Made by a program: the position numbers and the translations under genes. 64,000 bases of DNA, from positions 62,001 to 126,000 of the forward strand of contig JAJVIG010000005.1 in assembly GCA_022072145.1 (NCBI GenBank). The letters are read 5' to 3'. The notes beneath the pieces were generated by a model that worked only from the letters and a program-made list of their open reading frames with translations, ran no database searches and was not told the origin of the DNA. This document shows positions 23,549 to 55,147 of the stretch, one piece after another (within the stretch, counting starts at the first letter, position 1; each line of letters opens with the position of its first letter). The stretch comes from Pseudomonadales bacterium (GTDB lineage: Bacteria > Pseudomonadota > Gammaproteobacteria > Pseudomonadales > UBA5518).

Positions 23549-23597
23549 GCCGGATCCGCCGTGCGTGCCCTGCGGCGCGCACGGCGAATCGCTTCCC

Positions 23598-26042
23598 ATG
23601 GGCACCGTGACCGCCTTTGCGCTGGCCGGCGTGCGGGTGCTCGAACTCGCTGGCGCCGAAGGCGCCTATTGCGGTCGCTTGCTGGCTGATCTGGGCGCCG
23701 AGGTGATCCGTCTGGAACCGCCCGGCGGCGATCCGTTGCGCCAGCGCGGACCGCTGCCGCCCGGGCGGTCCACGGGGGGCTACACCGAGCGCTACCTGCA
23801 CGCCGGCAAGACCAGTCTGACGCTCGACCCGGAAACGCAGGCCGGCCGTGAGCTGCTGCTCGAACTGGTGCGTGGCGCGGACCTGCTGGTGGAAACCCTG
23901 CCGCCGGGCCGGCTGGCGGCGCTGGGGCTGGGCTGGGATCGCCTGCGCGAGCGCAATCCGGCGCTGGTGCTCACCTCGATCACGCCGTTCGGCCAGAACG
24001 GGCCGCACCGCGACTACCCGCTGGCCGATATCGTCGCGATGGCAATGGGCGGCGCGATGATCGTCACCGGGGATCCGGCGGACCCGCCGGTGGTGCTGGC
24101 CGCGCAGCAGTCCTTCGTGGTCGGCTCCACGCTGGCCGCTGCGAGCAGCCTGGTTGCGCTGCGCCACGTGGCCGCGGGCGGTGCCGGGCAGCACATCGAC
24201 ATCTCGCTGCAGGAAGCGATGCTCGCCGCGACCAGCATCAGCGGCATCGGCAAGTGGCTCGACGACGGGCTGGTGCCCAAGCGCTTCGGCACCGGGACGT
24301 TCTCCTCGGTTCCCTCGGGCAGCTATCCGTGCGCCGACGGCGAAATCTTCCTGATGATCAACCGGCCGCTGCACTGGAAGGCGCTGGCGCGCTGGGTGCA
24401 CGAGACCACCGGCAACGAGGAGATCCTCGACCCGATGTTCGAGGGTCCCTCGCTGGTGCGCCAGCCGTACCGCGAACTGCTCGACATCTTCATCGGCGAA
24501 CACACCTCCCGCTTCACGGTCGAACAACTCTACCGCGAGGCGCAGGAGCGGCACCTGGCGATGACGCCGCTCAATTCGCTGTGCGCCATGGTGCGTGACC
24601 GCCACCTCGGTGCGCGCGGCTTTTTCGTCGACGTGCCGCAGGCCGACGGCGGCACGCTGCGTTTCCCCGGACCGCCGTACCGTTTCTCGCGCACGCCGGC
24701 GCGCATCGCGCACGGCGCACCGTTGCCGGGCGCGGGCGATGCGGCCGTGGCGCGCCTGCTCGCGGACCCGCCGCCCGCGCCGCCACGCACGCAGTTCGCG
24801 CCGCCGGACGGTCCGCTGGCCGGGCTGCGGGTGCTCGAGTTCACGGCCGGGATGGCGGGGCCGTGGATCGGACGTTTCCTCGCCTGGTGCGGCGCCGACG
24901 TGATCAAGGTCGAGTCGAAGGCCTATCCCGACGTGACCCGGTTGTACATCCCGCCGCGCGAGCCCGAGCGCGGCATCCAGCCGCAGATGTCGCCGTGGTT
25001 CACCGACTGGAACGGCGGCAAGCGCTTCGTGTCGCTGGACCTCAGGAACCCGCGCGGCGCCGACCTGGCGCGCCGCCTGGCGGTGGCGAGCGACGTGGTG
25101 ATCGACAACAACAGCAGCGGCGTGCTGGCCAAGCTCGGGCTGGGTTTCGACGTGCTCGAGCGGTTGAAGCCGGAGCTGGTGCTGTTCAGCAGCACCGGCT
25201 ACGGCGACACCGGTCCCGACCAGCACTACGTGACCTGGGGGCCGAACATCGAGACGCTGTCGGGGATCGCGACCGTCTCCGGCTTCGCGCATCGCGCCGC
25301 GACGATGACGCAGTTCGCCTATCCCGACCCGCTCAGCGCGCTGTACGGACTGGTCGCGATCCTGGCCGCGCTGCGCCACCGTGACGCGGGTGGGCAGGGG
25401 CAGCGCATCGATCTGGCGCAGCTCGAGGCCACGGTCGCCTCGATCGGCCCGCTGGTGCTCGAGGCGCTCGCCGAGGGCCGCGATCCGCCGCGGCTCGGCA
25501 ACGCCGCGCGCACGCACGCGCCGCAGGGTTGCTATCCCTGTCTCGGCGAGGACCGCTGGTGCGTGATCGCGATCACCGACCAAGCGGCCTGGGAGCGCTT
25601 CTGCATCATCAGCGGCAACCGCGCCTGGCGCGACGATCCGCGCTTCGCCGACGCGGCGGCGCGCATCGCCAATGCGCACCAGCTGGACCGCCTGATCGGC
25701 GCCTGGACCGCGACGCGCGATCGCCATGAGCTGATGCATCTGTTCGCGCGCGCCGGCATCGCATGCGGCGTGGTGCAGGACGTCGAGGACCAGCTCGAGC
25801 GCGACGAGCACCTTGCCGCGCGCGGCTTCTTCGAACGCATCTACCACCACGCCAAGGGCATGGTGCTGGCGCCGGGGATCCCGCTCGGACTGGGCGGCAC
25901 CCCGGGGCGTACGCGCGATGCCGGGCACGCGCGCGGGCACCACAACCGCGAGGTGTTCCGCGAGCTGCTCGGACTCTCGACCGCGGACTACGATGCAGAA
26001 CTCGCGGCCGGCGTGATCGAGGCCGCGGACGGACAGCCGTAG
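23598..26042 (+). CDS. Tandem (two-domain) CaiB/BaiF CoA-transferase family protein, ~815 aa
   Basis: Two CaiB domains (LAGVRVLELAGAEGAYCGRLLADLGAEVIRLE and LAGLRVLEFTAGMAGPWIGRFLAWCGADVIKVE). Confidence 0.9.
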   Translation: MGTVTAFALAGVRVLELAGAEGAYCGRLLADLGAEVIRLEPPGGDPLRQRGPLPPGRSTGGYTERYLHAGKTSLTLDPETQAGRELLLELVRGADLLVETLPPGRLAALGLGWDRLRERNPALVLTSITPFGQNGPHRDYPLADIVAMAMGGAMIVTGDPADPPVVLAAQQSFVVGSTLAAASSLVALRHVAAGGAGQHIDISLQEAMLAATSISGIGKWLDDGLVPKRFGTGTFSSVPSGSYPCADGEIFLMINRPLHWKALARWVHETTGNEEILDPMFEGPSLVRQPYRELLDIFIGEHTSRFTVEQLYREAQERHLAMTPLNSLCAMVRDRHLGARGFFVDVPQADGGTLRFPGPPYRFSRTPARIAHGAPLPGAGDAAVARLLADPPPAPPRTQFAPPDGPLAGLRVLEFTAGMAGPWIGRFLAWCGADVIKVESKAYPDVTRLYIPPREPERGIQPQMSPWFTDWNGGKRFVSLDLRNPRGADLARRLAVASDVVIDNNSSGVLAKLGLGFDVLERLKPELVLFSSTGYGDTGPDQHYVTWGPNIETLSGIATVSGFAHRAATMTQFAYPDPLSALYGLVAILAALRHRDAGGQGQRIDLAQLEATVASIGPLVLEALAEGRDPPRLGNAARTHAPQGCYPCLGEDRWCVIAITDQAAWERFCIISGNRAWRDDPRFADAAARIANAHQLDRLIGAWTATRDRHELMHLFARAGIACGVVQDVEDQLERDEHLAARGFFERIYHHAKGMVLAPGIPLGLGGTPGRTRDAGHARGHHNREVFRELLGLSTADYDAELAAGVIEAADGQP

Positions 26043-30842: not shown

Positions 30843-32036
30843 ATGAGCAGGGGTGCGCTGGCCGGGATCCGGGTCATCGATTTCGGACAGATGGTGTCGG
30901 CGCCGTTCTGCGCGCGGCTGTTCGCCGATTACGGCGCCGACGTGATCAAGGTCGAGCCGCCCGGGGGTGATGCGGCGCGCGCCGCGGGGCCGTTCCCCGG
31001 CGACGCGCCCGACCCCGAGAAGAGCGGGCTCTACTTCATCACCAACACCAACAAGCGCGGCGTCACCTGCGACGTGGGCACCGAGGCGGGCCGTGCGCGC
31101 TTCCTGCGCCTGGTGAAGTGGGCCGACCTCCTGATCGAGAACCACACGCCGGCGCAGATGAAGGCGTGGGGGCTCGATTACGCCACGCTCGCCGAGGTGA
31201 ACCCGAACCTGGTCGTGGTCTCGATCACGCCCTTCGGCCAGACCGGCCCGTACAGCGGGTGGAACGGCTACGACCTGAACGCCTACCACCTCACCGGCGC
31301 GAGCAGCCGCTATTGCGGCCGGCCCGGCGAGATGCCGCTCGAGCACGGCACCTTCGCCGCCGACTACTTCGGCGCGGTGGCCGCCGCCGCGTGGGCGATG
31401 GCGGCGGTGTACGGGCGTCGCCACACGCACGGCGGGCAGCACCTCGACGTCTCGAGCGCCGAGGCGATCGCGGCCACCTTCGTCGGCGGGCAGAACATCG
31501 GCTGTTACGCGCAGGACGGCAAGTTCGACAAGCGTACCGGCGTCGGCATGCCGCTCGGCGCGCCCGCCACCATCCTGCCCTGCAAGGACGGCCACGTGTG
31601 GATGCTCGCGCTCGAGCCGGGGCAGTGGAACGGAATACGAGAGGTGATGGGCAATCCCGAGTGGGCCGATCTCGATCTGTTCCAGGATATGTTCCAGCGT
31701 GCGCAGAATGCCGATTTCCTCTATTCCATGATCGAGGAATGGACGATGCAGCACGGCAAGCTCGAGATCATGGAGAAGTGCCAGGCCGCCGGCGCGCCGG
31801 TGGCGGCCGTGTTCACGGTCGCCGAGGTGCAGGCGCATCCCCACCTCGAGGCGCGCGACTATTTCGTAGCCATCGAGCACCCGGCGCTCGGCACCGTGCG
31901 CACGCTGGGCGCGCCGTTCAAGCTGCCGGCCTCGCCCGGCGGCCCCGGCGTCCCGGCGCCGCTGCTCGGCCAGCACGACGCCGAGGTCGAGCGCGAACTG
32001 GCGAAGTTCGAGCAGGAGCAGGGCGGCGCGCGCTGA
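30843..32036 (+). CDS. CaiB/BaiF CoA-transferase family protein
   Basis: VIDFGQMVSAPFCARLFADYGADVIKVEPPGGD; Asp in FAADYFGAV. Confidence 0.9.
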   Translation: MSRGALAGIRVIDFGQMVSAPFCARLFADYGADVIKVEPPGGDAARAAGPFPGDAPDPEKSGLYFITNTNKRGVTCDVGTEAGRARFLRLVKWADLLIENHTPAQMKAWGLDYATLAEVNPNLVVVSITPFGQTGPYSGWNGYDLNAYHLTGASSRYCGRPGEMPLEHGTFAADYFGAVAAAAWAMAAVYGRRHTHGGQHLDVSSAEAIAATFVGGQNIGCYAQDGKFDKRTGVGMPLGAPATILPCKDGHVWMLALEPGQWNGIREVMGNPEWADLDLFQDMFQRAQNADFLYSMIEEWTMQHGKLEIMEKCQAAGAPVAAVFTVAEVQAHPHLEARDYFVAIEHPALGTVRTLGAPFKLPASPGGPGVPAPLLGQHDAEVERELAKFEQEQGGAR

Positions 32037-32080: not shown

Positions 32081-33301
32081 ATGGCGAGTGCACTGCCGCT
32101 GAAGGGCGTACGGGTGATCAATTTCGGCTGGGTCTGGGCAGGCCCGGTCACCGGGCAGACGCTGGGTTTCCTGGGTGCCGAAGTGCTGAAGATCGAGTCG
32201 CGCGCGCGCGTCGACATGACGCGCAACCTGCCGCCGTTCGGCGAAGGCATCCCGGGGCCGGACCGCAGCCTCTCGAACCACGCCTGCTGGGCCGGCAACG
32301 GCTCGGTGTCGCTGAACCTGAAGCACCCCGAGGCCAAGAAGCTGGCGCTGGAACTGGTCGCGAAGGCGGACATCGTGATCGAGAACTTCGGTCCGGGCGT
32401 GATGGAGGAACTGGGACTCGGTTACATCGAACTGCACAAGGTCAAACCCGACATCGTGATGCTCTCGATGCCGGCCGCCGGACTGTACGGGCCGCTGCGC
32501 CAGGTGCGCACCTACGGGCTCAGCGTGACCTCCACCACCGGCCTGGACAGCCTGGTCGGCTACAAGGGTGGTGGTCCGGTCCCGGTCGAGAACGCGTTCA
32601 CCGATCCCTTCGTCGGCATCTTCGGCGCCTTCGCCGTGCTGACCGCGCTGCACCATCGCGACGCCACCGGACACGGGCAGCACATCGACTTCTCGCAGCA
32701 GGAGGCGATCATGCACATCGCCGGCCCGGCGCACATCGACTACGTGCTGAACGGGCGCGTCGGCGGTCCGAAGGGCAACGAGCACCCGCTCGGTGGCGCG
32801 GCGCCGCACGGCGTGTTCCCGTGCGCCGGTGACGACCGCTGGATCAGCATCGCGGTACCGAGCGAATCCGAGTGGCAGGCGCTGTGCGCGGCGATGGGCA
32901 ACCCGCCGTGGGCCGGCGAGCCACGTTTCGCGACGCTGGCCGACCGGCTCGCGAACATCGATGCACTGCACGCGGCGCTGGCCGGCTGGAGCGCGCAGTT
33001 CGACGACCGCGAACTGGCCGCGACGCTGCAGTCGCACGGCGTGGCGGCGGCGCCGGTGCTGAACATCGCCGACCTGCTGCACGATCCGCATTACCGCGCG
33101 CGCGGCACCTTCGTCGAGGTGATCCACCCGCTCGGCTTCCCGGAGACGATCTACGGCGCCTACGTGAAGACCAGCCGCACCGAACCGGACGTGCAACCCG
33201 GTCCGGTGATCGGGCGCGACAACGACCGGGTGTTCCTGGAACTGCTCGGCCTGTCCGAGCAACGCTACCGCGAACTGAAGGAAGAGAAGGTCATCTACTG
33301 A
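32081..33301 (+). CDS. CaiB/BaiF CoA-transferase family protein
   Basis: VRVINFGWVWAGPVTGQTLGFLGAEVLKIES; Asp in FTDPFVG. Confidence 0.9.
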   Translation: MASALPLKGVRVINFGWVWAGPVTGQTLGFLGAEVLKIESRARVDMTRNLPPFGEGIPGPDRSLSNHACWAGNGSVSLNLKHPEAKKLALELVAKADIVIENFGPGVMEELGLGYIELHKVKPDIVMLSMPAAGLYGPLRQVRTYGLSVTSTTGLDSLVGYKGGGPVPVENAFTDPFVGIFGAFAVLTALHHRDATGHGQHIDFSQQEAIMHIAGPAHIDYVLNGRVGGPKGNEHPLGGAAPHGVFPCAGDDRWISIAVPSESEWQALCAAMGNPPWAGEPRFATLADRLANIDALHAALAGWSAQFDDRELAATLQSHGVAAAPVLNIADLLHDPHYRARGTFVEVIHPLGFPETIYGAYVKTSRTEPDVQPGPVIGRDNDRVFLELLGLSEQRYRELKEEKVIY

Positions 33302-40292: not shown

Positions 40293-41171
40293 ATGAAGCC
40301 GGCACCATTCGATTATTATGCGCCCGAGTCGCTCGCGGACGCCATTGCGCTGCTCGCGAAGTTCGACGACGAGGGCGTCGAAGCCAAAATCCTGGCCGGC
40401 GGCCAGAGCCTGATGCCGATGCTGAGCCTGCGGGTCGCGCGGCCCGAGGTGCTGGTCGACCTGCGCAAGCTCGCCGAGCTCCACTACATCCGGGACGAGG
40501 GCGACACCATCGCGATCGGTTCGATGACCAGCAAGCGCGCAGCCGAGGAGTCGGCGCTGATCCGCGAGCGCCAGCCGCTGTTCCACGACGCGACCATGAA
40601 CATCGGGCACCTGCCGATCCGCGCCCACGGCACGGTCGGCGGCTCGTTCGCGCACGCGGACCCGGCCGCCGAGTACCCGGCGGCGGCGATAGCGCTCGAC
40701 ATGCAGATGAAGGCCGTCGGGCCCGACGGCGCGCGCGTGATCGGCGCGCGCGATTTCTTCGTCACCTACCTGACCACCGATCTGGCGGCGACCGAGGTCC
40801 TGACCGAGGTGCGCATGCCGGTGCTCGCGCCGGGTACCGGCTGGTCGTTCCGCGAGATCTCGCGCCGCAAGGGCGATTTCGCGCTCGCCGGCGCGGCCGT
40901 GCTGCTGTCGCTGGCCGGCGGGCGGATCAGCGATTCGCGCGTCGTCGTGTTCGCGGTCAACGCGACCGCGGTGCGCCTGCCGGCGGCCGAGCAGGTGCTG
41001 CGCGGACAGGCGCCGGGCGAGGCGCTGTTCCGCGAGGCCGGGCTGGCCGGCGCCGCGGAGATCGAGGAGCCGATCGCCGACGTGCATGCGTCGGCCGACT
41101 TCCGCCGGCACCTGGTGTCGGTGGTGGTGGCGCGCGGTCTGGCCGAGGCGCAGTCGCGCGCGCGCGGCTGA
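40293..41171 (+). CDS. Molybdenum hydroxylase FAD-binding subunit (CoxM/CutM-like)
   Basis: KILAGGQSLMPMLSLR, GTVGGSFAHADPAAEYPAAAI. Confidence 0.9.
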   Translation: MKPAPFDYYAPESLADAIALLAKFDDEGVEAKILAGGQSLMPMLSLRVARPEVLVDLRKLAELHYIRDEGDTIAIGSMTSKRAAEESALIRERQPLFHDATMNIGHLPIRAHGTVGGSFAHADPAAEYPAAAIALDMQMKAVGPDGARVIGARDFFVTYLTTDLAATEVLTEVRMPVLAPGTGWSFREISRRKGDFALAGAAVLLSLAGGRISDSRVVVFAVNATAVRLPAAEQVLRGQAPGEALFREAGLAGAAEIEEPIADVHASADFRRHLVSVVVARGLAEAQSRARG

Positions 41172-41204
41172 GTGCCGGGAAACACACAACGGAGATATCG
41201 CACC

Positions 41205-41693
41205 ATGGCGCAACTGCACCGGGTTCGTCTGACGGTGAACGGGCGGGAATACGAGCGGGAAGTCGAGCCGCGCATGACGCTGGTCGATTTCCTGCGCCAC
41301 GAACTGGGGCTCACCGGCACCCACGTCGGCTGCGAGCACGGCGTCTGCGGCGCGTGCACGATCATCAAGAACGGCCAGGCGGTGCGCGCCTGCCTGATGC
41401 TCGCCGTGCAGGCCGACGGCGCGGAGCTGCGCACCGTCGAGGGCCTCGCCGGCGCCGACGGCCTGCACCCGGTGCAGCAGGCATTCATCGAGAAGCACGG
41501 GCTGCAGTGCGGGTTCTGCACACCGGGCTTCCTGATGAGCACGGTCGAGCTGCTCGAAGGCACCACCTCGCCGGGCGAGGAGCAGATCCGCGAAGCGATC
41601 GGCGGCAACATCTGCCGCTGCACGGGCTACCAGAGCATCCTGGAGTCGGTGGAGCTCGCCGCGCAGAAGATGCGCGCGGGCCAGGGCAGCTGA
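41205..41693 (+). CDS. Molybdenum hydroxylase 2Fe-2S subunit (CoxS-like)
   Basis: GCEHGVCGACTI...CGFCTPGFLMS...GNICRCTGYQSI. Confidence 0.94.
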   Translation: MAQLHRVRLTVNGREYEREVEPRMTLVDFLRHELGLTGTHVGCEHGVCGACTIIKNGQAVRACLMLAVQADGAELRTVEGLAGADGLHPVQQAFIEKHGLQCGFCTPGFLMSTVELLEGTTSPGEEQIREAIGGNICRCTGYQSILESVELAAQKMRAGQGS

Positions 41694-41717
41694 TCACGGA
41701 TTCGCAGGGGACACGCC

Positions 41718-44144
41718 ATGACGAACGCCATCCCGACTTCGTTCGACGCGTTGCCGACCACGCAGCGCCGCTTCATCGGCCGCGAGGTCGATCGCATCGA
41801 GGACCGCTCCCTGGTGACCGGCCACGCCCCGTTCATCGACAACTTCACGCTGCCCGACATGCTGCACTGCGCGATCCTGCGCAGCCCGCACCCGCACGCA
41901 CGCATCGTCGGCATCGACACCAGCCGCGCCGAGGCGCTGCCCGGCGTCGCGGCGGTGTTGACCGGCGAAGACATGCAGCGCTGGTGCAACCCCACCGCCA
42001 CGGCGCCCGAGGGCTGGGGGCCGTACAGCCTGGCGGTCGGCAAGGCGCGCTTCGTCGGCGAGCCGGTGGCAGCCGTGGCAGCCACCAGCCGGTATATCGC
42101 CGAGGACGCGTGCGAACTGATCGACGTCGAGTACGAGCTGCTGCCCCCGGTCGCGGATGCGACCACGGCGCTCGATCTCGCGACGCCGCTGCTGTTCGAG
42201 GAGAACGGCAGCAACCTGATCGTGGGGCGCAATTTCGTCTGGGGCGACGTCGAGGGCGTGTTCGCCGCTGCCGACCGGGTGTTCAACGCGAAGTTCCGCT
42301 GGAACCGCGTCGGCGCCAACCCCACCGAGACCTTCGGTTGCGTGTGCCAGTGGGACCTGATCGAGGACCGCCTGACCTGCCACGGCTCGTACCAGACACC
42401 GAGCTTCATGGGGCTGGGCCGGGCGCACGTGCTGCGCCTGCCGGCGAACCGCATCAACATCGTGAGCCATCCGCAGGGCGGCGGCTTCGGCGGCAAGGGC
42501 GGACCGCGCGGCACCGACATCGCCTCGCTGCTTTCGCGCAAATCCGGCGGCCGGCCGGTGAAATACATCGAGGACCGCGTAGAGTACCTGCTGGCCGGCG
42601 GCGGCCAGTCGTGGGACCGCTATTACGAAGCGTGGCTCGCGGTGCGCGCCGACGGCACCGTGACCGGGTTGCGCGTGCAACTGCTGGATGACCAGGGCGC
42701 CGGCGCCGAGGGCTACGGCACGATCTCGGTCGCCAAGCCGCTCGCGGCGTTCACCGGGTGCTACCGCATCGAGGCCGCCGAATACGACGTCAAGGTGGTG
42801 TGCACGAACCGCGCGCCCTCGTATCCGTACCGCGGCTACGGGCCGCCGCCGCACAACCTCGTGCTGGAGTCGATGATGGACCTGGCTGCGCGCGAGCTCG
42901 GCGTCGATCCGGCCGAGTTCCGCCGCCGCAACTACATCCGCCCCGAGCAGTTCCCGTACACGATCCCCAGCGGCAACGAGTACGACAGCGGCAACTACGA
43001 GGCCACGCTCGACAAGGCGCTCGAACTCGCCGGCTACGCGGAGCTGCGCGCCCAGCAGCAGCGCGCGCGCGCCGAGGGCCGCCTGGTGGGCATCGGCATC
43101 GCGAGCACCATCGAGCCGGGCGTGTTCGACTGGAACGCCTACGCGACGGTAGGCGTGCCGGGCGTGGGCGTGCCGGAAGGCATCTCGATCGGCATCAACC
43201 TGCTCGGGGAGATCACCGCGCGGGTCGGCTTCAACCTGCAGGGGCAGGGCCAGTACACCGTGGTGGCGCAGCTGCTCGCCGACTGGTTCGGCGTCGAGAT
43301 GGGCGCGGTGCGCGTGGTCTACACCGACACCGACCACGCACCGCCGCATTTCGGGCAGGGCGGCAGCCGGCTCGGCGTCTCGATCAGCGGCGCGGCCCTC
43401 GGCGCCTGCCAGCGGATCACCGTGAAGCTGCGCCGCGCCGCCTCCGTGCTGCTGCAGGCACCGTTCGAGCAGGTCGAGCTGATGGACGGCGTGCTGCGCG
43501 TGAAGGACATGCCGCAGGCGCAGATCCCGCTGGCGCAGGTGGTGGGTGCGATGCTCGCGCGCAGTGACCTGCTGCCCGAAGGCATGCAGCCCGACGCCTC
43601 GGCGACCAGCGTGTGGACCGCGCCGGGGCGCACCGCACCGGACGAGATGGGGCGCTGCAAGAGCTACCTGACGGCGGCCAACGCCTGCCACGTCGTGCTG
43701 GTCGAGGTGGATGCGGACACCGGCAAGACCGAGATCCTGAAGTACGTGATCGCCGACGACTGCGGCACGCGGCTCAATCCCTCCAACGTCGAGGGCATGA
43801 TCCAGGGCGGGGTGGCGCAGGGGGTGGGTGCCGCACTGCTCGAACAGTACGTCTACACCGACGAGGCGCAGCCGCTGGTGTCCACCTTCATGGACTACCT
43901 GGTGCCGACGATCAACGAGGTGCCGATGACGCAGAAGGCGGCGCTGGTGACGCCGTCGCCGTTCGCGCCGCTCGGCGCCAAGGGTTGTGGGGAGGGCGCG
44001 ATCCACACCACGCCGGCGGTGCTGATCGCGGCGATCAACGACGCGCTGTCGCCGCTCGGCGTGCAGGTGCGCGAGACGCCCGCCTCGCCGCACCGGGTAT
44101 GGTCATTGATCCGGTCCGCGCGCGGCGACCGGGCTTCCGTCTGA
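41718..44144 (+). CDS. Molybdenum hydroxylase large subunit (CoxL/xanthine dehydrogenase family)
   Basis: GGGFGGKGG, PYRGYGPPPHN, GAKGCGEGAIHTTPAV. Confidence 0.92.
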   Translation: MTNAIPTSFDALPTTQRRFIGREVDRIEDRSLVTGHAPFIDNFTLPDMLHCAILRSPHPHARIVGIDTSRAEALPGVAAVLTGEDMQRWCNPTATAPEGWGPYSLAVGKARFVGEPVAAVAATSRYIAEDACELIDVEYELLPPVADATTALDLATPLLFEENGSNLIVGRNFVWGDVEGVFAAADRVFNAKFRWNRVGANPTETFGCVCQWDLIEDRLTCHGSYQTPSFMGLGRAHVLRLPANRINIVSHPQGGGFGGKGGPRGTDIASLLSRKSGGRPVKYIEDRVEYLLAGGGQSWDRYYEAWLAVRADGTVTGLRVQLLDDQGAGAEGYGTISVAKPLAAFTGCYRIEAAEYDVKVVCTNRAPSYPYRGYGPPPHNLVLESMMDLAARELGVDPAEFRRRNYIRPEQFPYTIPSGNEYDSGNYEATLDKALELAGYAELRAQQQRARAEGRLVGIGIASTIEPGVFDWNAYATVGVPGVGVPEGISIGINLLGEITARVGFNLQGQGQYTVVAQLLADWFGVEMGAVRVVYTDTDHAPPHFGQGGSRLGVSISGAALGACQRITVKLRRAASVLLQAPFEQVELMDGVLRVKDMPQAQIPLAQVVGAMLARSDLLPEGMQPDASATSVWTAPGRTAPDEMGRCKSYLTAANACHVVLVEVDADTGKTEILKYVIADDCGTRLNPSNVEGMIQGGVAQGVGAALLEQYVYTDEAQPLVSTFMDYLVPTINEVPMTQKAALVTPSPFAPLGAKGCGEGAIHTTPAVLIAAINDALSPLGVQVRETPASPHRVWSLIRSARGDRASV

Positions 44145-45682: not shown

Positions 45683-46687
45683 TCAGTCGATCGCATCGAT
45701 CAGCCCCCACGCGAGCGCGGTGGGAGCATCGATGCGCCGCGCGGAGAGTGCCAGCCACGCCGTGCGCTGGCGTCCGATGCGGCGCGTGATGCTGACCGTG
45801 CCGCCGGCGCCGGGGATCAGTCCCAGCGTGATTTCCGGCAGTTGGAAAAGTGTGTCCGCGCTGGCGACGATGCGCCCGGCAAAGGCCGGCAGTTCGATCC
45901 CCGAACCGATGCAGGCACGATGCACACGGCACTCGATGCGCGGCGCGAGATCCGCGATCAGGCGTCCGGCGTTGCGCGTCGAGCGGATCGCGTGCGCGGC
46001 GGTGAGATCCTCCGCCAGCCCGAATTCCTCCAGGTCACCGCCGCTGCAGAAACACGCGCCCGCGCCGCGGATGCGCGCCAGGCGCAACGACGGATCGGCG
46101 GCCAGCAGCTGCAGTCCGGACACCAGTCCGTCGCGCATCGCGGTCGAGAAGGCGTTGCGCGCCTGCGGGCGGTTCAGCGTGATCTCGAGCACGTCTCCCT
46201 CGCGCGCGAGGAGCACCGGCGGCTCACGGTCGAGCGCGAGCGCCGGTGCGGTGGCGCGCCCCGCGAGGAAGGCGCGGAACTCCGCGCCGCCCTGCAGCGT
46301 GGCGAAGGCCAGCGATTCGGCGAGCAGGCCGTCGGCCAGCGTCGCGCGCGCGTTGTGCCGCAGCACCTGCACCAGCACCATCGCGGCGCGCGGATGCGCG
46401 CGGATGCTGCGGATCAGCGACTGCGCCTCGCGTGCCGAGGCGACCACCACGTCGGCCAGCGCGGCCGCGGCGGCGCCGGCCGGCGCCGCATCGGCGCCGC
46501 GGATCGCGATCACCGGGCACGGCAGTTCCGCCAGGCCCGCCAGTGTCGATGTCTCTGGCAGCGCACGATCCTCGCCGGCGTCGAACAGCAGGAAGGGCTG
46601 TTCCGCCAGCGACGAGAAGCGCTCGCGGCGCGCGGGGTCCGCGAGCAGCGACGGCAGTTCGCCGAGCGCGACGACGGCAGCGTCCAT
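45683..46687 (-). CDS. Enoyl-CoA hydratase/isomerase-like protein
   Basis: EITLNRPQARNAFS, RACIGSGIELPAFAGRIVASADTLFQLPEITLGLIPGAGGT. Confidence 0.82.
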   Translation of the reverse strand: MDAAVVALGELPSLLADPARRERFSSLAEQPFLLFDAGEDRALPETSTLAGLAELPCPVIAIRGADAAPAGAAAAALADVVVASAREAQSLIRSIRAHPRAAMVLVQVLRHNARATLADGLLAESLAFATLQGGAEFRAFLAGRATAPALALDREPPVLLAREGDVLEITLNRPQARNAFSTAMRDGLVSGLQLLAADPSLRLARIRGAGACFCSGGDLEEFGLAEDLTAAHAIRSTRNAGRLIADLAPRIECRVHRACIGSGIELPAFAGRIVASADTLFQLPEITLGLIPGAGGTVSITRRIGRQRTAWLALSARRIDAPTALAWGLIDAID

Positions 46688-46917: not shown

Positions 46918-48123
46918 ATGAGTGGCGCGCTGGACGATATCGTGGTGCTGGACCTGACGCGGAACTTCGCGTCGTCGATGTCGGCGGCCTTCCTCGCCGA
47001 TTTCGGCGCGCGCGTGATCCGTCTCGAAACGCTGCACGACACGGCCGCGCCGCTGGAGACGGCCGACTCGCCGCGCCCCGGCGCGTGGAACCACGAGGCC
47101 GACCTCATCCACCGCAACAAGCAGAGCGTGCGCATCGACGTGCACGGCGAGCGTGGGCGCGCGGTGCTCGACGACCTGGCCGCGCGCTGCGACGTGATCC
47201 TCACCGACTGGTTGCTGCCGGAACTCGAGGCGGCGGGGCTGGACTACGCCAGCGCCTCGGCGCGGCGCGCCGACGTGATCGTCGCGCGCATCTCCGGCTT
47301 CGGGCCGCGCGGCAAGGACCGCGAGCTGCCGCCCATCGACGAACTCGCCGCCGCGCGCACCGGCATGATGCCGATCCTGCCGCAGCCGGGGCAGCCGCCG
47401 GTCTACACCGGTGCCGGTGCCATGCACTCGGCCGTGCTGCTCGCCTTCGGCATCCTGACCGCGCTGGTGCACCGCCAGGCCACCGGCGAGGGGCAGCAGG
47501 TCGACACCTCGCTGTTCGCCGCGAACATGTACGGCGCGAGCCTGGACCTGCAGGCCTTCCTGGCGATCGGCAAGGGCGACCGGCTGCTGAACCCGATCTC
47601 GCGCCTCGACGTGTCGAACCCGATGTCGGGATCGCTGTACCCCAGCGCCGACGGCCGCTGGGTCACGCTGACCATGCCCGACACCGACCGCTGGTGGCCG
47701 GAGTTCTCGCGCGCGGTGGGCATCGAAACCGACGATCCGCGCTTCGACACCCACGAGAAGCGCTGCGAGACCAACCGCCTCGCGCTGATCCACGAGCTCG
47801 AGGCCGCCTTCGCGCGCCAGCCGGGTGCGCACTGGCGCGCGCTGTTCGCGGAGAAGGGCATGTCGGCGGACATCATCGAGCGTTTCGATTACCCGGCGAA
47901 CGACCCGCAGGCGCTCGCCAACCGCTACATCATCGAGCTCGATCACCCGACGCACGGGCCGGTGAAGAGCCTCGGCTTCCCGATCTACATGAGCGAGAGT
48001 CCGGCGCGGCTCGCGAGCCTGGCGCCGTGCCGCGGCCAGCACACCGCGCAGGTGCTGCACGAGTTGCTGGACTACCCGGCGGAGACGATCCACGAACTCG
48101 GCACCCAGGGCGTCATCGCCTGA
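46918..48123 (+). CDS. CaiB/BaiF family protein lacking the catalytic Asp
   Basis: CaiB-type sequence; Asp position reads TGAGAMHSAV. Confidence 0.88.
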   Translation: MSGALDDIVVLDLTRNFASSMSAAFLADFGARVIRLETLHDTAAPLETADSPRPGAWNHEADLIHRNKQSVRIDVHGERGRAVLDDLAARCDVILTDWLLPELEAAGLDYASASARRADVIVARISGFGPRGKDRELPPIDELAAARTGMMPILPQPGQPPVYTGAGAMHSAVLLAFGILTALVHRQATGEGQQVDTSLFAANMYGASLDLQAFLAIGKGDRLLNPISRLDVSNPMSGSLYPSADGRWVTLTMPDTDRWWPEFSRAVGIETDDPRFDTHEKRCETNRLALIHELEAAFARQPGAHWRALFAEKGMSADIIERFDYPANDPQALANRYIIELDHPTHGPVKSLGFPIYMSESPARLASLAPCRGQHTAQVLHELLDYPAETIHELGTQGVIA

Positions 48124-48142
48124 GCAATACGGAAGGTTCACC

Positions 48143-49351
48143 GTGGCAAGAGCATTGGAAGGCGTACGGGTCATCGACCTGACGGTATGGTTCCAGGGCC
48201 CCGTGTCGGCGCAGTACCTGGCCGACTTCGGCGCCGAAGTGATCAAGGTCGAGCGCCCGCAGGGCGGTGACCAGGCGCGCGGCGTGCGCAGCATCAAGTC
48301 GCTCGAGATCGGCGACTGGAACCAGTACTTCCTGGTCATCAACCGCAACAAGAAGAGCCTGGTGATCGACCTGCGCAAGCCCGAGGGGCAGCAGATCATG
48401 TACCGCCTGGTCGAGAAGGCGGACGTGTTCCTGTCGAACATGTCGCCCGAACTGCTCGCGGGCTGGGGGCTTTCCTGGGACAAGCTGCGCGCGATCAATC
48501 CGCGGCTGGTCTACGCCACGAACACCGGCTACGGGCGTTTCGGCGGCGTGTCGCGGCCTTCCTTCGACATGACGGTACAGGCGCTCACCGGCATCATGGC
48601 GCGCCTCGGCGAGCCGGGCGAGCCGCCGATCTACCTAGGGATGGGTTCCGGTGACGCCTACGGCGGCATCATGTCGGCGTTCGCGATCGCCACCGCGCTG
48701 TACCAGCGCAACCGCTGCGGCCACGGCCAGTGCATCGATGCCTCGCTCTACGGCGCGCAGCTCTACCTCGGCGCGCCGCAGTTGCAGGCCTACCTGGCAG
48801 GCAACGAGGACCGCGCGCTGCAGCATTCGCGCCGCGCGGCGCCGAATCCGCTGTGGAACCTCTATCCCGCGCGCGGCAAGTGGGTCTACGTCTGCGAGCG
48901 CAACGAGGACGCACGCTTCGCGTTGTTCGCCGAGGCCTTCGGCGACGCCGCGCTGGCGAATGATCCCCGCTTCGCCGGCGCCGATGCGCGCGCGCGCAAC
49001 AACACCGCGCTGATCGACGCGCTCGATGCGCTGGCGGGCGCGCTCGACCACGAGGCGCTGCTCGCGGCGCTCGAGCTGCGCGGACTGGCGTGCGCAGCGG
49101 TCAACACGCTGGCCGACGTGATCCGCGACGAGCAGGCGTGGGACAACGACTACCTGATGAAGGCCTGGTGCGAGGAAGTGCGACGCGAGGTCGAGGTGCG
49201 CGGATTGCCCGTCACGCTGTCGAAGACGCCGGGACAGATCGATTCGCTGGGTCCGCAGCTGGGCCAGGACACCGAACTGCTGATGATGGACCTGCTCGAG
49301 TACTCGTGGGACGAGATCGAGGCGTTCAAGGCGGCGGGCGCGATCCCCTGA
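48143..49351 (+). CDS. CaiB/BaiF CoA-transferase family protein
   Basis: VIDLTVWFQGPVSAQYLADFGAEVIKVERP; Asp in GSGDAYGG. Confidence 0.9.
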   Translation: MARALEGVRVIDLTVWFQGPVSAQYLADFGAEVIKVERPQGGDQARGVRSIKSLEIGDWNQYFLVINRNKKSLVIDLRKPEGQQIMYRLVEKADVFLSNMSPELLAGWGLSWDKLRAINPRLVYATNTGYGRFGGVSRPSFDMTVQALTGIMARLGEPGEPPIYLGMGSGDAYGGIMSAFAIATALYQRNRCGHGQCIDASLYGAQLYLGAPQLQAYLAGNEDRALQHSRRAAPNPLWNLYPARGKWVYVCERNEDARFALFAEAFGDAALANDPRFAGADARARNNTALIDALDALAGALDHEALLAALELRGLACAAVNTLADVIRDEQAWDNDYLMKAWCEEVRREVEVRGLPVTLSKTPGQIDSLGPQLGQDTELLMMDLLEYSWDEIEAFKAAGAIP

Positions 49352-49399: not shown

Positions 49400-50308
49400 A
49401 TGAGCGAGACGGTACAGGCGAAATGGGGCGAGTGGAGCTCCCCCGGTGGCGAAGGCCTCGACAATTTCCTCGAGATCCTCTACGAGAAGAAGTTCCACCA
49501 GCGGCTCGGCGGCGGCGTGGCGCGCATCACGCTGAACAAGCCCGACAAGATGAACACGCTGACGCTGGCGACCGTGGAGGAGATGTTCCGCGCCTTCTAC
49601 GACGCGAACCACGACCCGATGATCGGTGTGATCGTGGTGGCGGCGAAGGGCAAGCATTTCGGCGCCGGCGGCGACGTCGAGTGGGAGCGCTGGGGCCTGC
49701 GCGGCGCGTTCTACAACCGCTACCCGCACAACCGGCTGATGCGCATGTCGCGCAAGCCGATCATCGCGCAGGTGCAGGGCTACTGCATCGCCGGCCACAA
49801 CCACATGGCGTACTGCTGCGACTTCACGATCGCCGCCGAGAACGCGATCTTCGGCCAGGCCGGCCCGCGCGTGTCGTCGCCGGCCGACGGTTTCTTCGTG
49901 CCGTACCTGACCAAGGTGGTGGGCGCGAAGAAGGCACGCGAGCTGTGGATGCTGTGCCGCAAGTACAACGCGCAGCAGGCGCTCGACATGGGCCTGGTGA
50001 ACACGGTGGTGCCGCTCGATCGCCTCGAGGCCGAGGTGGACCAGTGGTGCGAGGAGATGCTCGCGCTCAGCCCCGGCTGCCTCGAGGTACTGAAGGCGTC
50101 GTTCGACCAGGAGATGGACGGCTACCGCGAGCAGTGCGTCACCTCGGCGGCGATGTATCCGGACTGGTTCGACATGCCCGAGGGCAAGGAAGGCGGGCCC
50201 GCGTTCCTGGCCAAGCGCACGCCCGGGTTCTGGGACATCCGCAAGCGCGAGGCGGAACTGCGCCAGCAGCTGCTCGACGAATACGAAGCGCGTCACCCGA
50301 AGAAGTGA
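49400..50308 (+). CDS. MenB/BadI-like crotonase (candidate ring-forming or ring-cleaving hydrolase)
   Basis: FTIAAENAIFGQAGPRVSSPADGF...KKARELWMLCRKYNAQQALDMGLVNTVVPLDRLEAE closely resembles MenB. Confidence 0.82.
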   Translation: MSETVQAKWGEWSSPGGEGLDNFLEILYEKKFHQRLGGGVARITLNKPDKMNTLTLATVEEMFRAFYDANHDPMIGVIVVAAKGKHFGAGGDVEWERWGLRGAFYNRYPHNRLMRMSRKPIIAQVQGYCIAGHNHMAYCCDFTIAAENAIFGQAGPRVSSPADGFFVPYLTKVVGAKKARELWMLCRKYNAQQALDMGLVNTVVPLDRLEAEVDQWCEEMLALSPGCLEVLKASFDQEMDGYREQCVTSAAMYPDWFDMPEGKEGGPAFLAKRTPGFWDIRKREAELRQQLLDEYEARHPKK

Positions 50309-50333: not shown

Positions 50334-51500
50334 GTGGAACTGAAGGACAAGGCGTGCATCGTCGGCATCGGGGAGACCCGCTATTGCCGCAAGCCGGGCT
50401 CCGGCATGAGCGAGGAGGCGCTGCAGCTGGCGGCATCGCGCGCCGCGCTCGAGGACGCCGGCCTGAAGGGCCGTGACATCGACGGCATCCTGGCGTTTCC
50501 GAACGTCGGCAAGTGCGAGGCGCTGGCCGCGAACCTCGGCAGCGAGAACCTGCGTTTCGCCGCCATCATCCACATGGGCGGCGCGACCCCGGTGGCCTCG
50601 TTGCGCCTCGCCGCGATGGCGATCGCGACCGGGCAGGCGAACCACGTGCTGATCCCGGGCGGCTGGAACGGCTACTCGGGCGCGCGCGTGCGCCAGACGG
50701 TCTCCACCGACAAGCATTCGCTGCCGGGCGGCGGCATCGCGTGGGATTACTACCTGCCGCACGGCCTGACCGCGCCGCCGCAGTGGTACGCGTTGATGGC
50801 GCGCCGCCACATGCACGAGTACGGCACCACGCACGCGCAGTTCGGCGCGGTCGCGGTGGCGATGCGCCGCCACGCGCAGCTCAACCCGGGCGCCGTGATG
50901 TGCGGCAAGCCGCTGACGATCGGGGAATACCTCGCCTCGCCGATGCTCGCCGACCCGTACCGCGTCAACGACTGCTGCCTCGAGACCGACGGCGGCACCG
51001 CGGTGATCGTGACCTCGCCCGAACGCGCGCGCGACCTCGGCAAGCCGCCGGTCTACATCATGGGCGCAGCCGCCGGCCAGCCGTACCCGGCCGACGAGAT
51101 CACGAACCGCCGTGACTTCCACCGCACCGGGCTGACGATCGCCGCGCCGGAAGCGTTCCGCATGGCCGGCGTCACGCCGGCCGACGCCGACTTCGCGCAG
51201 ATCTACGACTGCTTCACCTTCGAGGTGATCCAGCAGCTCGAGGAAGCCGGCTTCTGCCGGCGCGGCGAGGGCGGCTCCTTCGTCGAGAACGGCGCGATCG
51301 AGCTCGGCGGCCGGCTGCCGGTCAACACGCACGGCGGGTTGCTCTCGGAGGCGCACTCGCTCGGCATCGGCCATATCGTCGAGGCGGTGAAGCAGCTGCG
51401 CGGCGCCGCCGGCGCGCGCCAGGTCGAGGGCGCCCGGATCGGCGTGGTCACCGGCTGGGGCGATTTCGGCGACGGCAGCATCGCGATCCTGCGGCGCTAG
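50334..51500 (+). CDS. Thiolase-fold (SCP2/Ltp2-like) protein without recognisable nucleophilic Cys
   Basis: IVGIGETRYCRKPGSGMSEEALQLAASRAALEDAGL; IIHMGGATPVASLRLA; NTHGGLLSEAHSLGIGH. Confidence 0.85.
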   Translation: MELKDKACIVGIGETRYCRKPGSGMSEEALQLAASRAALEDAGLKGRDIDGILAFPNVGKCEALAANLGSENLRFAAIIHMGGATPVASLRLAAMAIATGQANHVLIPGGWNGYSGARVRQTVSTDKHSLPGGGIAWDYYLPHGLTAPPQWYALMARRHMHEYGTTHAQFGAVAVAMRRHAQLNPGAVMCGKPLTIGEYLASPMLADPYRVNDCCLETDGGTAVIVTSPERARDLGKPPVYIMGAAAGQPYPADEITNRRDFHRTGLTIAAPEAFRMAGVTPADADFAQIYDCFTFEVIQQLEEAGFCRRGEGGSFVENGAIELGGRLPVNTHGGLLSEAHSLGIGHIVEAVKQLRGAAGARQVEGARIGVVTGWGDFGDGSIAILRR

Positions 51501-51517: not shown

Positions 51518-51943
51518 ATGAGCCAGGATACGGTTGCCTGCGACAAGCCCTTGCCCGCGCTCGACGGCCTGAGCGGGCAGTTCTACGGCTGGTGCCGCCA
51601 GGGGGAGCTGCGCTTCCAGCGCTGCACGGGCTGCGGCGCGTTCCGCCACGTGCCGCGCGAGATGTGCCCGCACTGCAATTCGATGGAATGGGAGTGGGCG
51701 CGCTCCAGCGGCCGCGGCACGGTCTACACGTGGACCGTGGTCGAGCGTGCGCTGCACCCGGCGTTCGTGAACGCCACCCCGATCGCGCCGGTGGTCGTCG
51801 AGATGGAAGAGGGGGTGCGCCTGCTGTCGACGCTGGTCGATTGCGCGCCCGCGGATCTCGCGATCGGCATGCCGGTGGAGGTGGTGTTCGAGGCCGTGAC
51901 TCCCGAGGTCACGCTGCCGCGCTTCCGCCGCGCGGCGCGCTGA
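51518..51943 (+). CDS. DUF35 OB-fold/Zn-ribbon protein
   Basis: FQRCTGCGAFRHVPREMCPHCNS plus OB fold. Confidence 0.9.
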   Translation: MSQDTVACDKPLPALDGLSGQFYGWCRQGELRFQRCTGCGAFRHVPREMCPHCNSMEWEWARSSGRGTVYTWTVVERALHPAFVNATPIAPVVVEMEEGVRLLSTLVDCAPADLAIGMPVEVVFEAVTPEVTLPRFRRAAR

Positions 51944-51990: not shown

Positions 51991-52770
51991 ATGGCGCTGG
52001 AACTGCCCGAGACCTTCACCTACGAGAAACGCGGCCGCATCGCGATCATGACCGTCAACCGGCCGCGCGCGATGAACGCGTTCACGACCGAGATGCTGGC
52101 GGCGATGGACGCCTGCTTCGCCGATTTCCAGAAGGACGACGACCTGTGGGTCGCGATCCTGACCGGCGCCGGCGACAAGGCCTTCTGCGCCGGCATGGAC
52201 CTGGCCGAGGCGATTCCCCGCCTGAACTCGGGCGAACAGCTCGGCTACGAGGACCACACGAAGCGGCCGTTCTCGGACGTGTTCAAGCCGATCATCGCGG
52301 CGATCAACGGCTTCTGCATCGCCGGCGGCATGGAGTTCATGCAGGGCACCGACATCCGCATCGCGGCCGAGCACGCGACCTTCGGGCTCGGCGAGGTGCG
52401 TTTCGGACTGGTTCCCACCGGCGGCACGCACGTGCGCCTGCCGCGGCAGATCCCGTGGGCGGTCGCGATGGAGCTGCTGCTCACCGGCGAGAACATCGAC
52501 GCGCGCCGCGCCTGCGAGATCGGGCTGATCAACCGCGTGGTGCCGCGCGAGCAACTGATGGACGAGGCGCTGCGCATCGCGGAGAAGATCTGCATGAACA
52601 GCCCGCTGGCGGTGCGCACCGCGAAGGAGATCGTGGTTCGCCAGGCCAACCTCGAACCCGGCTTCGTGCTCGAGAAGGCGATCGGGGCACGCGTGTTCGG
52701 CTCGTACGACGCGACCGAGGGGCCGAAGGCGTTCATGGAGAAGCGCAAGCCCGAATTCAAGGGCCGCTGA
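51991..52770 (+). CDS. Enoyl-CoA hydratase/isomerase family protein
   Basis: IAIMTVNRPRAMNAF, AFCAGMDL, INGFCIAGGMEFMQGTDIRIA. Confidence 0.9.
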   Translation: MALELPETFTYEKRGRIAIMTVNRPRAMNAFTTEMLAAMDACFADFQKDDDLWVAILTGAGDKAFCAGMDLAEAIPRLNSGEQLGYEDHTKRPFSDVFKPIIAAINGFCIAGGMEFMQGTDIRIAAEHATFGLGEVRFGLVPTGGTHVRLPRQIPWAVAMELLLTGENIDARRACEIGLINRVVPREQLMDEALRIAEKICMNSPLAVRTAKEIVVRQANLEPGFVLEKAIGARVFGSYDATEGPKAFMEKRKPEFKGR

Positions 52771-52798: not shown

Positions 52799-53866
52799 AT
52801 GGCGCTGCGCGTAGAGACGGTGATGATGGGGCCCGACACCGGCCAGTACGCCGGCAAGGGGCAGGCCGTGACCGGCATCGCGCGCATCGCCACCGATGCG
52901 CGCCGGCTCGAGGCGCTGGGCTTCGACGGCATCACCGCGCCCGAGGCCGGGCACGACCCGTACCTGCCGCTGGCCTTCGCCGCCGAGCACACCGGGCGGG
53001 TGCGCCTCGGCACCAACGTCGCTATCTCGTTCCCGCGCAGCCCGATGGTCACCGCGCAGCTCGCGTGGGACCTGCAGAACTACTCGGGCGGGCGCTTCGC
53101 GCTCGGCATCGGCACCCAGATCAAGGGCCACAACGAGCGCCGCTACGCGACGCCGTGGCCGTCGGCACCCGGGCCGCGCATGCGCGAGTACGTGCTGTGC
53201 CTGCGCGCGATGTTCCGTTCGTTCCAGAACCCGCGCGCGCCGGAGTACTTCGAGGGCGAGCACTACCGTTTCACGATGCTGCCGCCGTTCTTCAATCCGG
53301 GGCCGATCGGGCACCCGCAGGTGCCGATCCACGTCGCCGCGGTGAATCCGTACATGGCACGCATGGCCGGGGAGATCTGCGACGGGCTGCGCCTGCACCC
53401 GGTGGCGACCTTCGCCTACACGCGCGACGTGCTGCTGCCGGCGATCGCCGCGGGCGCGGCGCGCGCGGGGCGCGAGGCGGCGGCGTTCGAGCTGATCGGC
53501 GCGCCGTTCCTCGCGTTGGGGAGCAACGAGGAAGAATTGCGCAAGTCGATGGATGCGCTGCGCCAGAACATCTCGTTCTACGCCTCGACGCGCTCGTACC
53601 ACGCGGTGCTCGCCTTCCACGGCTGGGAAGACGTCGGCATGGAACTGCACCGCCTGTCGCTGGCCGGCAAGTGGGCCGAGATGCCGGCGCTGATCACCGA
53701 CCAGATGCTCGAACAGTGGGCGGTGATCGCGCTGTACGAGGACTTCGCCGAACGCCTGCGCGAGCGCGCGCAGGGTGTGTTCGGCACGGTGCTGATCGAC
53801 CTGTCGGCGGCGGCGCGCGCCGACGACGAATTCGTGCGCGAGACCGTGCGTCGCCTGCACGCCTGA
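52799..53866 (+). CDS. LLM-class flavin-dependent oxidoreductase
   Basis: Luciferase-like barrel: FPRSPMVTAQLAWDLQNYSGGRFALGIGTQ. Confidence 0.87.
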   Translation: MALRVETVMMGPDTGQYAGKGQAVTGIARIATDARRLEALGFDGITAPEAGHDPYLPLAFAAEHTGRVRLGTNVAISFPRSPMVTAQLAWDLQNYSGGRFALGIGTQIKGHNERRYATPWPSAPGPRMREYVLCLRAMFRSFQNPRAPEYFEGEHYRFTMLPPFFNPGPIGHPQVPIHVAAVNPYMARMAGEICDGLRLHPVATFAYTRDVLLPAIAAGAARAGREAAAFELIGAPFLALGSNEEELRKSMDALRQNISFYASTRSYHAVLAFHGWEDVGMELHRLSLAGKWAEMPALITDQMLEQWAVIALYEDFAERLRERAQGVFGTVLIDLSAAARADDEFVRETVRRLHA

Positions 53867-53896: not shown

Positions 53897-55147
53897 ATGA
53901 CCGCACCGACCACCGCGACCGGACCGCTCGCCGGGCTGCGCGTACTCGACATCTCGACCATGCTGGCCGGCCCGTACGGGGCTACGCTGCTCGGCGACCT
54001 CGGCGCCGACGTGATCCGTGTCGAATCCCACTACGGCGACGAGAGCCGCCACCTCGGCCCGAAGCGCGGCACCGAGCGCGGACCGTACCTGAGCCTCAAC
54101 CGCAACAAGCGCGACATCGTGATCGACCTGCAGCAGGGCGACGCGCGCGAGGTGTTCGCGCGGCTGGTGCGCACCGCCGACGTGCTGATCACCAACATCC
54201 GCGAACCCGCGCTCAGCAAGCTCGGCCTGAACTACGAGCAGGTCGCCGAACTGAAGCAGGACATCGTCTGGGTGGGCGTCACGGCGTTCGGTCCGGACGG
54301 TCCCTACGCGGGGCGGCCCGGCATCGACTTCCTCGCCCAGGGCTACGCCGGCGTGCTGGCGCTGAACGGCGACCCCGACGGTGCGCCGGTGCGCACCGGC
54401 TTCCCGGCCGTAGACGTGATCACCTCGCTGCTGGTCGCCAACGCGGCGCAGGCGGCGCTGCGGGTGCGTGACCGCACCGGCGAGGGCCAGCGCGTCGAGG
54501 TCTCGCTGCTGGATTCGCTGATGCACGCGCAGGCGAGCTCGATCGGCGCCTACCTCACCACCGGCGAGGCGCCGGTGCGCACCGGCAACCGCAGCCTCTA
54601 CTTCGCGCCGTCGGGCGTCTACCCCACGCGTGACGGCGGCCACGTCGTGATCACCACGCCGGGCGAGAAGTTCTTCGGCAAGCTGTGCCGCGCGCTCGAG
54701 GTCGACTGGGACACCGATCCGCGCTTCCACGACATCACGGCGCGGCTCGTGAACCAGGACGAGCTCGATCGCGTGGTGTCCGAGCGCACCAGCGCGTACA
54801 CGCGCGAGGAACTGATCCCCAGGCTGGTCGCGGCCGACGTGCTGACCGCTCCGATCAACCAGGTCGAGGACGTGGTGCACGATCCGCAGATCCTGCACAA
54901 CAACATGATCGTCTCCACCCAGCACCCCGCGCTCGGCGAGCTGCAGCTCACCGGCGTGCCGATCCGCTTCTACCGCACCCCCGGCAGCGTGCGCCTGCAT
55001 CCGCCGATGCTGGGCGAGAACACGCGCGAGCTGATGGCGGAGCTGGGCTATTCGGTCGCCGAGGTCGATGCGCTGATCGCTGCCGGGCTGGTGGCCGACA
55101 CCGCCGACATCGAGGCGAGGCGCGCGGCACGCCGCAAGCCCTCCTGA
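53897..55147 (+). CDS. CaiB/BaiF CoA-transferase family protein
   Basis: VLDISTMLAGPYGATLLGDLGADVIRVES; Asp in PAVDVITS. Confidence 0.9.
   Translation: MTAPTTATGPLAGLRVLDISTMLAGPYGATLLGDLGADVIRVESHYGDESRHLGPKRGTERGPYLSLNRNKRDIVIDLQQGDAREVFARLVRTADVLITNIREPALSKLGLNYEQVAELKQDIVWVGVTAFGPDGPYAGRPGIDFLAQGYAGVLALNGDPDGAPVRTGFPAVDVITSLLVANAAQAALRVRDRTGEGQRVEVSLLDSLMHAQASSIGAYLTTGEAPVRTGNRSLYFAPSGVYPTRDGGHVVITTPGEKFFGKLCRALEVDWDTDPRFHDITARLVNQDELDRVVSERTSAYTREELIPRLVAADVLTAPINQVEDVVHDPQILHNNMIVSTQHPALGELQLTGVPIRFYRTPGSVRLHPPMLGENTRELMAELGYSVAEVDALIAAGLVADTADIEARRAARRKPS

Follow-up and report, generated by a model that had tools for sequence, protein, structure and literature searches.

An Asp-less and an Asp-containing CaiB protein as a probable heteromeric class III CoA-transferase in a Pseudomonadales bacterium

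Genes at the locus

The window analysed here is a stretch of 64,000 nucleotides from a Pseudomonadales bacterium (contig JAJVIG010000005.1). In it, two genes of the class III (CaiB/BaiF) CoA-transferase family lie side by side on the forward strand, 19 bp apart. The first, A (46918-48123, +), codes for 401 amino acids, lacks the catalytic Asp and is the predicted non-nucleophilic partner. The second, B (48143-49351, +), has a GTG start, codes for 402 amino acids, contains the Asp and is predicted to be the catalytic subunit. PF02515 spans both proteins full-length, with 238 bits for A and 344 bits for B (cut-off 23.3). AlphaFold models reached a pLDDT of 79 with a pTM of 0.71 for A, and a pLDDT of 75 for B. 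The model of A matches the class III structures SUGCT, FRC, BbsF and BbsE at a TM of about 0.7.

Directly downstream lies a MenB/BadI-like crotonase-fold protein (49400-50308, +), predicted from NCBIfam models and MenB structures to be a cyclic beta-oxoacyl-CoA ring hydrolase. Its best NCBIfam models, MenB and BadI, are both below cut-off. With 209.7 bits against the BadI equivalog, for a cut-off of 467.6, it is a relative of BadI and not a member. A BadI-like gene occurs within the flanking sequence of 52 of the 68 A-B loci described below.

The next product (50334-51500, +) is an SCP2-thiolase-like protein, predicted to be a Sal/Ltp2-type retro-aldolase. Its best solved relative is the lipid-transfer protein 6ok1, which we take to be of the Ltp2 type from its name and from PMC12329534. 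A YDxF/Y motif with Cys, as in Sal and SLP, marks retro-aldolases (PMC12329534). The product carries this motif as YDCF, with Y291, D292, C293 and F294 invariant in 28 sequences. The nucleophilic Cys of thiolases is absent, with GGA at positions 82-84.

It is followed by its DUF35/ChsH2-like Zn-ribbon OB-fold partner (51518-51943, +; PF01796 and PF12172), an enoyl-CoA hydratase family protein (51991-52770, +; PF00378) and a protein that scores higher than the NCBIfam cut-off of TIGR03617, a family of F420-dependent LLM oxidoreductases (52799-53866, +). A third CaiB protein, C (53897-55147, +), carries Asp173 and is presumably an ordinary homodimer; it is found directly after A-B in many distant loci.

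Upstream, a CoxMSL/xanthine-dehydrogenase-type three-gene hydroxylase (40293-44144, +) is encoded; several Myxococcota loci likewise have one close to A-B. Between the hydroxylase and A, on the opposite strand, an enoyl-CoA hydratase-like gene (45683-46687, -) has a crotonase domain only in the C-terminal half of its product (residues about 158-333). This domain ends before the profile does, and the gene is near A-B in 10 loci.

Catalytic position, linkage and domain conservation

The residue 24 positions ahead of the G in the GQ motif is Ala168 in A (codon GCC, 47419-47421, +) and Asp171 in B (codon GAC, 48653-48655, +), the two states that the initial annotation had read at this position of formyl-CoA transferase (FRC). 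Both hold in homologues and are thus neither accidental nor peculiar to a single strain. Asp171, the predicted nucleophile, aligns with Asp169 of E. coli FRC (reference sequence from the annotated K-12 genome), and the B position is Asp in 67/67 rows. Aligners differ over FRC Gly168-Asp169 in A, which they match with a two-residue deletion or with Ala168; neither placement gives A an Asp. Across the 67 aligned rows of A, this position holds Ala in 30, Gln in 24, a few Pro, Ser, Val, Lys, Glu or Gly, and Asp in none. The sole A homologue with Glu is L030:2516-3718 (GEMHTS). C has Asp at the same position in 43/43 rows, and most other CaiB-family domains in the same genome also keep it, which makes A the exception.

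The initial annotation had named another Asp in the active site of the A protein as the observation that would speak against its reading; no other Asp stands at the nucleophile's place in the FRC alignment or in the 67 rows of A. Judged by the catalytic Asp of class III enzymes (FRC D169), B qualifies and A does not. From its sequence, A is a member of class III by fold and not, on its own, a class III catalyst of the known mechanism.

A has also lost the G19-P20 and G42-D43..R46 motifs of FRC, both invariant in B, where the GD..R CoA-binding loop occupies residues 42-46 (48266-48280, +). Other positions of A are strictly kept. Asp97 is invariant where FRC (Asn96) and B have Asn, and Asp141 is invariant at FRC Glu140. 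In total, 57 columns are invariant among 47 sequences from many phyla, with no stops. This pattern indicates strong selection on A, which is therefore not a decaying gene. The loss of the Asp and of the CoA loop could by itself suggest a degenerating duplicate of B. This reading has next to no probability, and we reject it on the conservation across many phyla, with B always adjoining.

A scan of genome contigs with A as query gave 69 loci, at 38-77% identity to A. They are found in Rhodocyclales (Aromatoleum, Thauera, Sterolibacterium), Halieaceae and Steroidobacteraceae, and also in Myxococcota, Chloroflexi, Binatota and Actinobacteria. B lies directly after A, on the same strand and in the same order, in 68/68 informative loci of this search begun from A, which cover Pseudomonadota, Myxococcota, Chloroflexota, Binatota and Actinomycetota. 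The start of B is often less than 30 bp from the end of A, or overlaps it. As the locus search started from A, B without A was sampled only among 56 relatives; this B-first search gave two further B genes, and A adjoins both. Among 369 class-level and 399 phylum-level genomes, A or B was found only in the genome of the window itself, which says of the pair simply that it is rare. No close A or B was found on plasmids in a plasmid search.

Four loci carry A and B fused in a single frame, the linkers being 8 to about 40 residues long. One such fusion, L045 (9992-12535, 847 aa), comes from Actinobacteria bacterium ATB1. The other three, L055 (Microthrixaceae), L057 (Myxococcales) and L063 (TMED88), are each one open frame. 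The assemblies are drafts, yet frame errors would have had to remove the stop of A four times independently, which is unlikely, so we consider the fusions real. Pairwise distances of A and B are closely matched (r = 0.93), and correlate at 0.82 once the BadI-like neighbour is controlled for. Given the co-occurrence over many phyla and the occasional fusion, A and B very probably form one enzyme.

In solved class III enzymes, each site sits between the large domain of a subunit and the small domain of its partner (PMC3720670, PMC9196870). We compared the conservation of the two domains (large, FRC 1-200; small, FRC 226-330) in 58 paired loci, with L045 excluded. In A, the mean pairwise identity is 0.56 for the N-terminal large domain and 0.64 for the small domain; in B, it is 0.75 and 0.44, respectively. 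For C, the expected homodimer, the values are 0.70 and 0.59 (33 loci). The domain-by-subunit interaction is 0.35 (block-bootstrap 95% interval 0.22-0.48). Invariant residues of the large and small domains stand at 27:21 in A versus 73:5 in B (Fisher p = 1.4e-6), with a stricter circular-shift control of the contrast giving only modest support (18 of 415 shifts reach the observed value).

Conservation is thus concentrated in the CoA-binding large domain of B and in the small domain of A, and the opposite halves have drifted. Most of the A-specific invariants lie in residues 226-287 of the small domain (47593-47778, +), namely N234, P235, S237, G238, D245, W248, P254, D255, T256, W260, H279, R282 and R287; this segment is predicted to face the active site of B. 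The small domain of B is still partly constrained, with R230, L237, N239, W247 and R283 invariant. The reciprocal pattern predicts one composite site, made of the large domain of B and the small domain of A, and one abandoned site, so that the pair probably has a single shared active site.

B could instead be active as a homodimer, with A as an optional regulatory or stabilising partner that takes no share in the site. The large domain of B is complete and the NPLWN loop of its small domain is conserved, as such an enzyme would need. However, no part of B is less conserved than the small domain it would depend on, which lies well below that of C, while the small domain of A is the most conserved part of A, which makes this arrangement improbable.

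It is also unlikely, if by a hair less so, that A works in the same pathway as a homodimeric enzyme of its own, with another chemistry (for example a CoA-ester lyase, isomerase or hydratase), co-transcribed with B and outside any complex. Many polar residues are invariant in A specifically, Asp97, Asp141, Asp255, Asp318 and His279 among them, and would suit an active site of its own, and the CaiB fold does include non-transferases such as the racemase AMACR. Yet the lost GD..R loop and the poorly conserved N-terminal half would be odd for a CoA-ester enzyme, and a complex accounts better for the fusions to B and the strict gene order.

The reading that these sequences support best is therefore a heteromeric CoA-transferase in which one subunit is catalytic and the other degenerate. 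It is the one first proposed for the two proteins, and the adjacency in all 68 loci, the four fusions, the matched distances and the reciprocal domain conservation all argue for it.

Relation to BbsEF

The benzylsuccinate CoA-transferase BbsEF had been put forward as a precedent, with one catalytic and one degenerate subunit. We identified the BbsE copy in A. toluclasticum by its near-identity to chain A of PDB 9fn0, and the BbsF copy by adjacency and a match by eye to the sequence of chain B. Where BbsF carries Asp178, named in the title of PDB 9fol ('D178-CoA adduct'), the residue of BbsE is Tyr; the precedent is right. The two systems share their layout, with class III subunits side by side, the Asp-less gene first and the Asp-containing gene second.

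In maximum-likelihood trees, A and B each form a clade at 100%. Together they join two Asp-containing CaiB proteins of the same genome (100/99), and BbsE and BbsF fall in other clades. A and B are sisters at 90/69, or 95 in a quick tree. The first tree carried a mislabelled A row from L045, and the second was built without L045. Forcing A with the BbsE side is rejected by the AU test (p = 0.002). Because of the long deep branches, the separation from BbsE and BbsF is surer than the exact branching order. From this separation and the AU result, the Asp-less/Asp pairing arose at least twice, with A/B placed by the trees outside BbsEF and as a pairing of separate origin.

The same evidence decides against A/B being an orthologous BbsEF pair that acts on a succinate adduct, which we reject as highly improbable. 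The architecture and gene order are alike, and a DUF35/thiolase-like pair is nearby, as in the bbs operon. But the clades are separate, the thiolase-like neighbour has an aldolase motif and is nearest to Ltp2, and no toluene genes were seen in the window of A/B. BbsE moreover retains the GP and the CoA-binding GD..R motifs, both lost by A; judged by these motifs, A is degenerate in another manner than BbsE.

The window contains further CaiB pairs. An 825-aa protein (23565-26042, +) is a fusion of two CaiB domains, the first without the catalytic Asp (AAQQSFVVGS, from residue 179) and the second with it (FAYPDP, from 584). In the tree the first half groups with BbsE and the second with BbsF, so both kinds of Asp-less/Asp pair are present in the window. 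Another adjoining pair (30843-32036 and 32081-33301, +) falls on the BbsE side and the BbsF side of the tree, respectively. Both of its members have Asp, with Glu in two relatives of the first (L045, L052).

Proposed enzyme and comparison with known systems

We propose that A interlocks with B in an obligate heterodimer, or perhaps in a dimer of such dimers, with one working site in which Asp171 of B is catalytic. We give this proposal as a whole a probability of roughly 0.8. The large (Rossmann) domain of B would bind CoA, and Asp171 would perform the usual acyl-aspartyl-anhydride/aspartyl-CoA chemistry. The small domain of A would shut over the site of B and help to shape the acyl pocket. 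The mirror site, between the large domain of A and the small domain of B, would have neither the Asp nor the CoA-binding loop and would be non-catalytic. Its own site may still serve A in an unusual second function, conceivable since Asp97 and Asp141 are retained there.

As for the possible role, the BadI-like hydrolase, the Sal-type retro-aldolase with its DUF35 partner and the hydratase point to the breakdown of an alicyclic dicarboxylic acid. From these neighbours, A/B would place CoA on, or move it to, a carboxylate of this acid. A plausible order is transfer of CoA to a side-chain carboxylate, hydration, retro-aldol loss of acetyl-CoA and hydrolytic opening of the ring, with the substrate as well as the order deduced from the gene set.

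The sequence data thus support a heteromeric enzyme whose kind is known, whose origin is separate and whose one-site signature is unusually clear. We lean, with some reserve, towards a broader picture: a second, independently evolved one-sited class III CoA-transferase, with a composite and an abandoned site, that probably fits a bulky alicyclic substrate and belongs to an undescribed ring-degradation pathway common to denitrifying Rhodocyclales, marine Halieaceae, Myxococcota, Chloroflexota and Binatota. In Aromatoleum and Thauera, which can be grown, the conserved gene set probably marks such a pathway for alicyclic acids. A also cautions against labelling every CaiB/BaiF gene an active enzyme. 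If the proposal is true, a second origin with fusions and a split of labour between domains would make the loss of a site a recurrent solution in this fold.

To our knowledge, very few class III CoA-transferases have been described as heteromeric, and our search of the literature on class III heterodimers found little. FRC/YfdW, YfdE, SUGCT and other homodimers share the fold, the catalytic Asp as in B and a site to which two subunits contribute, one through its large domain and one through its small domain. They differ in having two identical working sites, with the Asp and the CoA loop in every subunit.

The succinyl-CoA:phthalate CoA-transferase SptAB is a family III CoA-transferase made of two gene products (PMC11659651), a likeness to A/B drawn from its description and not from sequence. 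For the kind of job proposed here, the closest parallel is ThnP of anaerobic naphthalene degradation, which moves CoA intramolecularly between two carboxylates of an alicyclic diacid (PMC11659651). ThnP, however, belongs to another CoA-transferase family, has a proposed catalytic Glu and is encoded by a single gene.

Lastly, the steroid hydratase ChsH1-ChsH2 is a one-site heterodimer, in which one subunit provides the catalytic part and the other the binding pocket (PMC11321319). It resembles the proposed A/B enzyme in its one composite site and bulky substrates, and differs in its MaoC fold and unrelated reaction. If our reading of A/B is true, the two would be parallel cases, with ChsH1-ChsH2 showing the loss of one site for another fold.
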